Source: Clostridia bacterium (GTDB taxonomy: Bacteria > Bacillota > Clostridia > Oscillospirales > Acutalibacteraceae). From it: a DNA stretch of 64,000 nucleotides. The stretch is from positions 1-64,000 of the forward strand of contig JAFSAR010000006.1 in NCBI GenBank assembly GCA_017442225.1. Direction: 5' to 3'. This document shows, piece after piece, positions 20,525-23,933 of the stretch (its first letter is position 1; every line of letters begins with the position of its first letter). A model generated the notes under the pieces. The model saw nothing but the letters and a program-made list of their open reading frames with translations. It was not told where the DNA came from and ran no database searches. The translations under genes and the position numbers were made by a program.

Positions 20525-20550
20525 GGGGAGGCGTTTCGCCTCCCGATTTT
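20525..20550 (+). terminator. Terminator hairpin, copy 1 of a 26-bp dispersed repeat
   Basis: GGGAGGCG-TTT-CGCCTCCC plus GATTTTT forms an 8-bp GC-rich stem and T-tract after the membrane-protein gene. The same 26 bp recur exactly at 23908-23933. Confidence 0.85.
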
Positions 20551-20576: not shown

Positions 20577-20605
20577 TTGAAAGTAAAAATGATTTATGCT
20601 ATAAT
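20577..20605 (+). promoter_or_regulatory. Sigma-A promoter of the PIN-like accessory gene
   Basis: TTGAAA and TATAAT with a 17-bp spacer, about 36 bp before the ATG. The accessory gene therefore has its own promoter, isolated from the operon upstream. Confidence 0.8.
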
Positions 20606-20647
20606 AATTATAATTTATGGGCTTTAAAAACAAAAAGGGGAATTAAA

Positions 20648-22573
20648 ATGAATCTAACAAAAACTTCAATATTAGCATCTTTTGCGACAATCAAAATATT
20701 AAATGATACCAAAAAGTATAATAATCCATATCAAATTCTTTCGGAATTTATTAACTACATTATTTGTACGGAAAAAATTTATACTTTTAACTCTATAGAA
20801 ATGAAAAATTACTTAAAAAGTATTTTTGGCTTTGATATACCAGAGGCAGTGGTTAAAACTTCAACAAAAAATTTATCTTATCTTAACAGAAATGATGGAA
20901 TATATACTGTCGATAGAAATGGACTAGCCGTTGATGACTCGTTTGAAGCAACAAGAATATCTGCGGAAACAACAAATACAAATATTATTGAGTCTTTAGT
21001 TGCATACATAGAATCAAAAGAATCTGGTAGTGTAGTAGATAGAAATATTTTAACACAAGATTTTATTGCTTTTGTTGTCGATGACCAACAAAGAACGGTT
21101 GGCAAATATACAGATTTAATAAGTGAATTTATTTTGAAAAATGAAAATAATGTCAATATGCAAAATGATTTGCGAACTATACAGGAAGGAAGTATTTTAT
21201 ATATTGGTTTAAATCACAATATTAACGAAACAGGAAGTATTACTAAAAAATTAACATTATTTTTAAGTATGGAAATATTGTTTAGTTTGGTAGGGTTTAA
21301 TGGTACAATTCATCAAAGACTAGCCGAAGAATTTCTAGTGCAAGTTAAAAATGCAAATTTAAATGGACAAAAAATATTCTTAAGATATTTTTCTGAGGTT
21401 AAGGAAGAAATTGATAGTTATTTTGACAATGCAGAAATGATTGTTGATGGGAAAATGCAACCTATGGATAGGGTTGCTATGAAAGCAATAATTAATAATT
21501 GTAATGAAGTGAGTGATGTGACTGTAAAAAAATCTGATTTTTATCATTCCTTACAGTATAGATATGGCATATTGGAAGATAATAAAAACGATTATTATTC
21601 AGTAGAAAATAATATAAACAACCTTGAAAGCATAGAATATACTGATCCTCAAATACAAGCCAGTTGGAAATATATAAGTCATATTAACAAATTAAGAAAA
21701 GGACAAATATTTTCTAACAATATTGAATCAGAATATATCTTAATTACAAATACGCGTAGTGCGTTAAATGCATCAAAAGAGCAGGCCGATAAAGATAAGG
21801 TAACCAAAAACATTGAACAAACTAGTGATTATGCTTTGTCGCTAAACAAAATAACTAATATCCTATGGTATAAGTTGGGTAATGGTTTTGGGCGAAAGGA
21901 ATATCCTACAAATATTGATACTGTTTTAAGAGCAAGAATAGTTTTGGCATCTAGTATTTCGCAGAATGTAACAGAAATATATAATAAGGCTAAATCACAA
22001 CATAAGAAGGGTGAAATTAGTGATGAACAACTTGCTGCAAGAATAATTATGTTGCGGAAAAAACCGCTTCTTCCAGAAGAATTAGAAGGTGATGTTATAG
22101 AAGAAAGTATGGATTTCTCCCCAGATTATATATCTAGATTTGAACAGGAAATTAATGAAAACAAAGCTGCGCTTGAAAAGAAAGATAAGGAAATAGAACA
22201 AATTATAAACAAAAGCCAAAAAATTATTGTAGAAAAGGAAAATACAATAGCAGAAAAAGAACAGCTTATAATACAAAAAAGCCAAGAAAATGAGGCTTTG
22301 AATGTTGAGCTCAAAAAATATAAGGAAAAAGAGGATAACGAAAAGGCAAAAAAAGAAAAAAGAAAACGTATATGGAAAATAATATGGTCAATTGGATGGC
22401 GAGTTAGTTTATATTTGTTTATAGGAATGCTAGCATATAAGGCATATAAATACGACAAGGAATTGTTGGGAATGTTTTTATCAATTAGTGATGTTGTTTT
22501 ATTGTTGAAGACTGGATTAAATAAAGGTATAAAATTCAGACGCAAACATAAGGTCGTAGAAATAAACGAATAA
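20648..22573 (+). CDS. Accessory protein: winged-helix-like N-terminus, PIN-like domain, coiled coil, membrane anchor
   Basis: A 641-residue protein I cannot assign to a named family. Residues 28-90 (FINYIICTEKIYTFNSIEMK, YLKSIFGFDIPEAVVKTSTK) look like a winged-helix unit. Residues about 203-380 have the rhythm of a PIN-like nuclease: strand TLFLSMEILFSLVG, helix LAEEFLVQVK, FSEVKEEIDSYF, then ISHINKLRKGQ and YILITNTRSALNAS, the usual late PIN strand with T-N. The position of the first catalytic Asp reads S207-M-E209, so the site may be degenerate. Residues 493-572 are a Lys/Glu-rich coiled coil; 581-620 hold one or two membrane helices. Codon use is much more AT-rich than in neighbouring genes, suggesting transfer. 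A defence or stress role is speculative. Confidence 0.7.
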   Translation: MNLTKTSILASFATIKILNDTKKYNNPYQILSEFINYIICTEKIYTFNSIEMKNYLKSIFGFDIPEAVVKTSTKNLSYLNRNDGIYTVDRNGLAVDDSFEATRISAETTNTNIIESLVAYIESKESGSVVDRNILTQDFIAFVVDDQQRTVGKYTDLISEFILKNENNVNMQNDLRTIQEGSILYIGLNHNINETGSITKKLTLFLSMEILFSLVGFNGTIHQRLAEEFLVQVKNANLNGQKIFLRYFSEVKEEIDSYFDNAEMIVDGKMQPMDRVAMKAIINNCNEVSDVTVKKSDFYHSLQYRYGILEDNKNDYYSVENNINNLESIEYTDPQIQASWKYISHINKLRKGQIFSNNIESEYILITNTRSALNASKEQADKDKVTKNIEQTSDYALSLNKITNILWYKLGNGFGRKEYPTNIDTVLRARIVLASSISQNVTEIYNKAKSQHKKGEISDEQLAARIIMLRKKPLLPEELEGDVIEESMDFSPDYISRFEQEINENKAALEKKDKEIEQIINKSQKIIVEKENTIAEKEQLIIQKSQENEALNVELKKYKEKEDNEKAKKEKRKRIWKIIWSIGWRVSLYLFIGMLAYKAYKYDKELLGMFLSISDVVLLLKTGLNKGIKFRRKHKVVEINE

Positions 22574-22760
22574 TTGATGTCGTAAAACTCCACCCGTGTG
22601 GTTCGGAAGGAAAAATATATATGCAAAAGTTTCGCTAATATATAAATCCATTGTCGGAAGCAATACGAGTGACTAAGAAAGGCGATATTATTTTTGAGGC
22701 ATATTGTATGATAGGATATTTCCACCATACGCTTGATATATTTAGAAATAAAACATAAAA
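22574..22760 (+). other. Gene-free stretch with a possible gene remnant
   Basis: No promoter or confident ORF is seen here. A frame open from 22639 to a stop at 22756-22758 reads ...LSEAIRVTKKGDIIFEAYCM and on to HHTLDIFRNKT without a start codon or ribosome binding site. It looks like the C-terminal scrap of a lost gene rather than a functional one, but I do not recognise a parent. Confidence 0.25.
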
Positions 22761-22798
22761 AAATTTGAGGGTGGCTCGTACGAGCCACCCTCAAATTT
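22761..22798. terminator. Perfect 38-bp palindromic, bidirectional terminator
   Basis: A 19-bp arm, AAATTTGAGGGTGGCTCGT, is followed directly by its exact complement, with A/T ends on both sides. It separates the plus-strand accessory gene from the convergent methyltransferase. Confidence 0.85.
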
Positions 22799-22832
22799 TG
22801 CGTCACATTAAACAAAGAATAGGGAATAAGGT

Positions 22833-23603
22833 TTATTTTTTACATATACCTTTGTATATGTAATACGGTTTTGAGTAAAGATATGTGCCGCTTTTATCTG
22901 CCTCAATGAGTTCGTTAATAAACTCATCATATTCGTCTTTTGTGAGTACACCTGTGTTTTCACCTTCCACCCAGTCGGTTGATTCACCAAACAGCCAGCC
23001 GATGTTTTTGCTAAATTCATAGCCGAACATACCTTGTTTATATTCGGTTTCAATAACATTGTGAACGCATATACTACTTTCAAATAATCCGGAGTTATTA
23101 AACACACCATGTATTCTTCTGCCCATCCATCCGTCAAGGTCGTCCATCCAACCCTGTTTAGTTATGGCGTAAGAGTGAATACATTTAGTAATTAAATCTT
23201 GATTATCACCATTATAAACAACACTGTCGAAGTCAGCGTGTACACATATTACCATACCACCGGGTTTTAAGATTCTGTTTATCTCACTTATAAAGGTAGC
23301 TTTGTCACTAATGCATTCGAGAAGGTCTTTAGTCAATACTAAATCAAACGTATTGTCGGGAAAATCAAGTTTTCCTGCACAGTTCATAATTTTAAGTTCT
23401 ACAGGTGTGCTGTAGGGGATGGTAACAAAATTTCTATCGGTTACATCTACACCTATGGCTTTTGTTACTTTGCTAGGGAACTCTTTTATAATTCCGTTAA
23501 GATATCCTGCGTTTCTGCAACCTAAATCAACAATGGCAGCGTTATCGGGTAAGTCTATTAGTTCATATATTGCTTCGTTAAGTGATGATTTATTTACTTT
23601 CAT
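22833..23603 (-). CDS. Class I SAM-dependent methyltransferase under leader-peptide attenuation
   Basis: A 256-residue Rossmann methyltransferase. Motif I is IVDLGCRNAGYL (25-34), the acidic ribose ligand is in AIGVDVTD (D53), then LDFPDNTFDLVLTKDLLECI and ILKPGGMVICVH. The C-terminal half (GWMDDLDGWMGRRIHGVF; FGYEFSKNIGWLFGE) is a distinctive, probably substrate-binding extension. It is not an Erm (no N-[IL]-P-[YF] motif) and lacks the RlmA zinc finger. The ATG at 23603 follows AAGGAGA; the 17-codon longer ORF would start inside the upstream terminator. Its leader encodes an Arg-rich peptide and an attenuator, an arrangement typical of inducible antibiotic-resistance genes. The substrate is unknown. 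Confidence 0.85.
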   Translation of the reverse strand: MKVNKSSLNEAIYELIDLPDNAAIVDLGCRNAGYLNGIIKEFPSKVTKAIGVDVTDRNFVTIPYSTPVELKIMNCAGKLDFPDNTFDLVLTKDLLECISDKATFISEINRILKPGGMVICVHADFDSVVYNGDNQDLITKCIHSYAITKQGWMDDLDGWMGRRIHGVFNNSGLFESSICVHNVIETEYKQGMFGYEFSKNIGWLFGESTDWVEGENTGVLTKDEYDEFINELIEADKSGTYLYSKPYYIYKGICKK

Positions 23604-23620
23604 AATAATTCTCCTTAAAT

Positions 23621-23907: not shown

Positions 23908-23933
23908 GGGGAGGCGTTTCGCCTCCCGATTTT
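23908..23933 (+). terminator. Terminator hairpin, copy 2 of the 26-bp dispersed repeat
   Basis: Identical to 20525-20550 over GGGGAGGCG-TTT-CGCCTCCC-GATTTT. No plus-strand gene ends immediately before it, so it may be a mobile or recombined copy; it sits only 5 bp before the promoter at 23938. Confidence 0.75.

Follow-up and report, generated by a model that had tools for sequence, protein, structure and literature searches.

The stretch of DNA analysed here (hereafter the window) comprises positions 1 to 64,000 of contig JAFSAR010000006.1 from a Clostridia bacterium (GenBank assembly GCA_017442225.1). The gene under study is an intact open reading frame (ORF) on the forward strand at 20648-22573, which encodes a protein of 641 amino acids (P0001). 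A first-pass annotation had described the product as an accessory protein with a PIN-like core, a coiled coil and a membrane anchor, and had proposed a role in phage defence, which is probably correct. The GC content of the ORF is 28.3%, compared to 41.9 ± 3.0% for the 45 other ORFs of the window, and its GC content at third codon positions (GC3) is 20.7%, compared to 39.7 ± 4.6%, in agreement with the different codon use claimed earlier. The gene, its signals and the domains of its product are as follows:

20577-20605, + strand: promoter-like TTGAAA-17-TATAAT with an extended -10 (11 of 12 matches, by consensus only)
20636-20640, + strand: ribosome-binding-site-like AGGGG, 7 bases 5' of the ATG, read from the sequence
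20648-22573, + strand: coding sequence of the membrane-anchored PIN-fold protein, with relatives at 21-52% identity across most of its length
20663-20911, + strand: winged-helix-like helical N-terminal domain, residues 6-88, from AlphaFold2 secondary structure
21245-21883, + strand: predicted PIN-fold domain, residues 200-412, from AlphaFold2 and structural realignment
22121-22357, + strand: charged coiled coil, residues 492-570, in one continuous AlphaFold2 helix, 46% charged before the first membrane segment
22379-22519, + strand: two-helix membrane hairpin, residues 578-624, from hydropathy (hydrophobic segments 578-596 and 606-624)

A full-length AlphaFold2 model built with 20 family sequences had a mean predicted local distance difference test score (pLDDT) of 81.6, with block means of at least 90 at residues 201-260 and 291-310, and a domain model of residues 190-425 had a pLDDT of 88.9 and a predicted template modelling score of 0.87; the confidently modelled core spans residues 202-412. 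The models contain the PIN order of elements, β1-α1-α2-β2-α3-α4-α5-β3-α6-β4. For structural matching, Foldseek candidates were realigned with VIA-align and the top 50 rows were judged. Nearly all of the best 50 rows for the domain model were PIN proteins (Z 9.1-6.4; 2.9-4.7 Å over 117-155 residues), the top match being VapC of R. felis (Z 9.1, 129 residues, 2.9 Å), and the others including H. influenzae VapC1 (Z 8.9), S. flexneri VapC (8.9), FitB (8.3), Nmd4 (8.3), Rrp44 (7.7), SMG6 (7.6) and protein-only RNase P (7.4). HARP was also among the PIN-type matches, and the full-length model matched PIN structures with Z up to 9.6. As a Z of 8-9 is itself moderate, we base the assignment on the fact that almost every row points to the same superfamily, and we confidently predict from these models that residues ~200-412 adopt a PIN fold. 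The PIN-like order of elements read in the first pass was thus recovered in the models and in PIN-dominated matches, and structure prediction of the region gave a confident PIN-like model instead of a different fold.

Library searches recovered none of this. The window protein had no match in Pfam, NCBIfam, PADLOC, PHROGs or PDB sequences, Foldseek of BFVD gave no significant match, and neither the protein nor its relatives matched a Pfam PIN family, with hmmscan of 18 PIN regions giving scattered sub-threshold matches only. Foldseek with the full-length model returned length artefacts (methyltransferases, rhodopsins), which were set aside for the structural realignments.

The regions that flank the core also largely bore out the earlier description. 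The segment before it was modelled with helices at 49-60 and 66-73 and a two-strand wing (79-82 and 85-88), and it resembled MarR/SarA-type winged helices weakly (Z about 5). Behind the core, a single long helix (492-602) carries the charged coiled coil. The coiled coil and the anchor proposed in the first pass were both found, but the anchor is made of two helices in a hairpin and not of one. All homologues whose C terminus could be read have one or two hydrophobic C-terminal segments, and 18 of 21 have two.

The main departure from a canonical PIN domain is at residue 207, at the end of β1, where the first-pass annotation had noted S-M-E in place of the catalytic Asp motif. We found that all 12 relatives outside one Bacillota clade have Asp at this position (D-T-E or D-M-E) and that all 10 proteins inside it, the window protein included, have Ser or Gly. 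In a tree of 21 proteins this requires one change, with a support of 96/97 for a nine-member Asp-less clade; the tenth Asp-less member, L076, was added after this tree was made. The residues considered for the active site are as follows:

21266-21274, + strand: S207-M208-E209 (AGT ATG GAA), the place of the PIN Asp-x-Asn/Glu
21407-21409, + strand: E254, an acid of the helix that follows β2, unchanged in all relatives; putatively the expected second PIN acid
21515-21517, + strand: D290, a candidate for the third acid, Asp or Glu in almost all relatives
21575-21580, + strand: E310-D311, end of β3; E310 is kept in 10 of 10 Asp-less proteins and may be a compensating acid
21746-21751, + strand: T367-N368 after β4, where the fourth PIN motif is expected; hhalign aligned it in register, though not significantly; N368 is variable

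In the realignment with the VapC structure 5ecw, VapC residue 1 is matched by model residue 12. With a gapless first strand, residue 207 would then face VapC residue 7, the position mutated as D7A in 5ecw. As the first Asp is missing, nuclease activity of the window copy is doubtful, and from its sequence we do not class it as an active PIN nuclease. Asp 207 is the only conserved acid of the domain that was lost in the Asp-less branch. E209, E254 and R350 are invariant across the family, and N218, W407 and Y316 are likewise invariant in the Asp-less branch. Among the acids gained by this branch, only E310 might, judged by the fold, be close to the active site. The Asp-bearing branch is, judged from its coding sequences, under purifying selection (nonsynonymous rate 0.059 and synonymous rate 0.604 for the pair L005/L028).

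More than one reading suits the Bacillota branch. In the most novel one, to which we give somewhat less than even odds, the branch as a whole still functions, be it with a remade metal site (E209 with a branch-specific acid such as E310), with a site composed between adjacent tethered subunits, or as a sensor of infection that does not cleave. Alternatively, the Asp-less proteins would be pseudo-nucleases, in which the PIN fold is a binding or assembly module (a sensor or a composite-site partner) and defence is exerted by the membrane hairpin, through pore formation or a block of DNA entry. The uniform Ser or Gly at residue 207 after a single change fits this alternative, as do the retention of the membrane hairpin in all members and the finding that the window gene's own genome contains neither a second family member nor a PF01850 PIN protein. 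SMG6 and Nmd4, both structural matches of the window PIN domain, are eukaryotic mRNA decay factors to which no sequence relation was found. Like the Asp-less branch, which lacks one, the PIN domains of SMG5 and Nmd4 lack catalytic acids. SMG5 and SMG6 are described as a PIN pair that forms a composite unit (PMC12923823). However, the invariance of E209, E254, R350, N218, W407 and Y316 in the branch, with D290 nearly so, would be unexpected without chemistry, and the conserved E310 sits at the predicted active-site edge of β3. We regard a pseudo-nuclease as somewhat unlikely. The clean switch from Asp to Ser or Gly is a natural experiment on the need of a PIN domain for its first Asp.

The family was counted at 21 independent loci; a 22nd, that of L076, came later and stands outside the locus counts. 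Its members occur across about eight phyla (Bacillota, Chloroflexota, Thermodesulfobacteriota, Balneolota, Bacteroidota, Spirochaetota, Campylobacterota and Pseudomonadota). A 6-row profile run on genomes found relatives in Clostridia, Negativicutes, Chloroflexota, Thermodesulfobacteriota, Balneolota, Treponema, Rikenellaceae and Helicobacter; the same profile found none in viral contigs, and single-sequence pattern-based locus searches found no relatives. Among genomes of the taxonomic family, order and class to which the window belongs, about 1 in 130-400 carries the gene. Copies lie on enterobacterial plasmids (Pantoea, Citrobacter and Duffyella), at the edge of an H. pullorum prophage record, and, for L076, on an element with ParA and a replication initiator; some are flanked by integrase or recombinase genes. 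In E. coli, 4 of 5426 genomes carry the gene, between ssrA and tail genes at the end of a lambdoid prophage, which is a usual place for cargo genes; this prophage copy (WP_136676584.1) is one of the Asp-bearing proteins.

The surroundings of the window gene show the same mobility. The gene lies in a 3.4-kb block, shared with a divergent methyltransferase gene, that is missing from four same-genus genomes; in these, the conserved flanking genes (up to 20509 and from ~23930 in the window) are separated by a short spacer only. The block has the following further features:

20526-20544, + strand: 19-bp palindrome GGGAGGCGTTTCGCCTCCC, left border of the block
22833-23612, - strand: gene for an S-adenosylmethionine-dependent methyltransferase, divergent from the PIN-fold gene
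23909-23927, + strand: identical 19-bp palindrome GGGAGGCGTTTCGCCTCCC, right border of the block

The GGGAGGCGTTTCGCCTCCC palindrome occurs in three copies in the whole genome, two of which bound the block, and the palindrome-bounded site looks like a cargo insertion site. The spacers of some same-genus genomes hold other short palindromes. Together with the composition of the ORF, these observations show that the window gene is foreign, horizontally mobile cargo. The methyltransferase was considered as a partner of the family and rejected: relatives with 72-90% identity sit elsewhere in three same-genus genomes, and none was seen at other family loci. No VapBC-type small antitoxin gene adjoins the PIN-fold gene, which stands alone between the hairpin at 20526-20544 and the divergent methyltransferase gene.

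The distribution bears directly on the reading of the protein as a housekeeping membrane RNase akin to the PIN-TRAM protein YacL. The PIN domain of 3ix7, a Thermus protein that we take to be of the PIN-TRAM YacL kind, is among the best structural matches (Z 7.2), and a membrane-anchored PIN domain is common to both. YacL is encoded by a core gene and has membrane helices at its N terminus and a TRAM domain at its C terminus. By comparison, the window protein has its anchor at the opposite end, behind the coiled coil, and its gene is accessory and foreign in composition; no TRAM domain match was found in it, and hydrophobic helices of the anchor type occur at its C terminus only. As the distribution is patchy, with about one genome in 130-400 carrying the gene and the site empty in same-genus relatives, this reading is in effect refuted, and we give it next to no weight.

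Known defence genes lie within 5 kb of the family gene in 6 of the 21 independent loci, a rough count, as visual selection of the neighbours preceded PADLOC testing. The family gene is inside a bacteriophage exclusion (BREX) operon in one locus (brxA-brxB-brxC, family gene, pglX; L014), ~10 bp 3' of hsdS in a type I restriction-modification (R-M) operon in another (hsdR-hsdM-hsdS; L009), and downstream of hsdS in a third (L008). It overlaps the beginning of an operon for a type II methyltransferase and endonuclease in L022, adjoins Nhi/AbiO in L003, and in L017 lies 1.6 kb 3' of Hhe and 1.9 kb 5' of GajA-GajB (Gabija). Such a count has a P of about 3e-6 at a background of 2% and of 0.014 at a background of 10%; the 2% is the published share of all E. 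coli genes that have a known defence gene no more than 10 genes away (PMC13092281). PADLOC on one plasmid copy gave only a match to a 58-residue HamA-type fragment (E 4e-4). The survey of homologues thus found them patchily distributed in defence loci, plasmids and prophages, and not in housekeeping contexts.

From these data, we consider it reasonably probable that the family consists of stand-alone, membrane-tethered PIN-fold proteins that act against phages or other invaders and are carried as mobile cargo. In the mechanism that we envisage, the winged-helix-like N-terminal region would sense or bind nucleic acid or protein, while the coiled coil and the two-helix hairpin would hold the PIN-fold domain at the inner membrane, the coiled coil probably making the protein oligomeric. 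During infection, the PIN domains would be gathered in the oligomer and would then cut RNA, or DNA as it enters at the membrane, which would stop phage growth. In the Bacillota branch, which exchanged the Asp for Ser or Gly in a single change and kept the other conserved residues, the proteins may cleave by means of a rearranged metal site (E209, E254, D290 and perhaps E310) or act without cleavage.

Several points weigh against a defence nuclease of this kind. The window protein lacks the first Asp at the end of β1 and matched no described defence family, no defence genes lie next to the window copy, and the neighbourhood count carries the roughness given above. With the domain model, Foldseek ranked PIN domains first and second with E-values that were not significant, and hhalign against an 8-sequence VapC-like profile aligned only motif 4, again not significantly. 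In addition, 3 of the 21 copies are broken, at different places: by a frameshift in an A-run (L016:1380-1530), by another frameshift (L021:4500-4660) and by a ~40-bp tandem duplication (L022:9940-10120). The breaks may mean that the intact protein is costly or that the gene is switched on and off, or they may be assembly errors. The split genes at these three loci had the look of overlapping gene pairs, but a conserved two-gene form was rejected, as the breaks differ in kind and place.

The missing catalytic Asp and the broken copies elsewhere would also be expected if the window copy were a decaying, functionless remnant. We hold this to be very unlikely, as the 641-codon frame of this copy is unbroken and preceded by a site that fits the promoter consensus well, and the Asp change is old, being common to ten diverged and mostly intact copies. 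The protein might instead serve mobile elements in exclusion or competition (superinfection exclusion by plasmids or prophages, or plasmid maintenance) and not be a phage-defence effector proper; the membrane location and the plasmid, prophage and integrative-and-conjugative-element-like carriers would suit such a role. The embedding of family genes in BREX and R-M operons argues against this role, which we judge unlikely.

Among described systems, one of the closest to the proposed defence protein is DS-3, a single-gene anti-phage PIN system from DefensePredictor whose PIN residues are essential for defence and which has no antitoxin (PMC13092281). The window protein would share this one-protein, PIN-based design without an antitoxin. 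By description, the PIN domain of DS-3 is split between the N and C termini, whereas that of the window protein is one central block, to which a winged-helix-like head, a coiled coil and a membrane hairpin are added. VapC and FitB toxins gave the best structural matches (3zvk, 6nkl, 5ecw and 2bsq), but VapC is a 130-residue toxin with an adjoining antitoxin, while the window protein has 641 residues, is solitary and membrane-bound, and lacks the first Asp. Three of the family's protein accessions were looked for in the literature and none is named in a paper found, although an earlier description is possible, as Payne 2024 and Brenes and Laub 2025 may hold PIN systems; in the passages of a BREX survey that were covered (PMC12839542), no PIN protein of this design was found. 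The window protein is probably an undescribed defence candidate: its predicted fold is PIN, it is unannotated, and its branch has naturally lost the key Asp. As an unannotated family that is wide but thinly spread, it is a clear single-gene defence candidate, and its places in BREX and R-M operons and in the lambdoid prophage cargo site make it one that can be tested in E. coli.

The promoter-like site of the window gene lies 3' of the hairpin at 20526-20544 and ends ~40 bases 5' of the start codon. Promoter-like patterns as a class are not enriched (17 found, 15.0 expected from shuffles); this site is the best promoter match of the region and is suitably placed for the ORF. Of the signals claimed in the first pass, the gene's own promoter is represented by this consensus match, and its own terminator is supported only in part: downstream there is a strong inverted repeat (22760-22799), but its T-tail was scored on the - strand only.

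Further observations concern relatives and neighbours. Cousins of low similarity and the same layout were seen at L025/L060 and L077; those at L060:4582-6672 and L077:1411-3324 combine a winged-helix-like segment, a PIN domain with D-C-S or D-T-K, a coiled coil and a membrane helix, and a larger unannotated superfamily is likely. The L077 cousin matched PIN_12 at E 0.049, below the cut-off, and the L060 cousin is followed by genes for a type II endonuclease and a cytosine methyltransferase. A DUF6338 membrane-protein gene (L013:1612-2298) lies just 5' of the copy in a goat Clostridia genome. The family gene has a Schlafen AlbA_2-HATPase_c_4-winged-helix gene as its neighbour in three loci (L009:12232-13680, L012:12092-13492 and L020:11800-13149), judged by eye in L009 and by Pfam in L012/L015 and L020; in L020 this neighbour lies 9 bp downstream of the family gene, and it is a possible recurrent partner.
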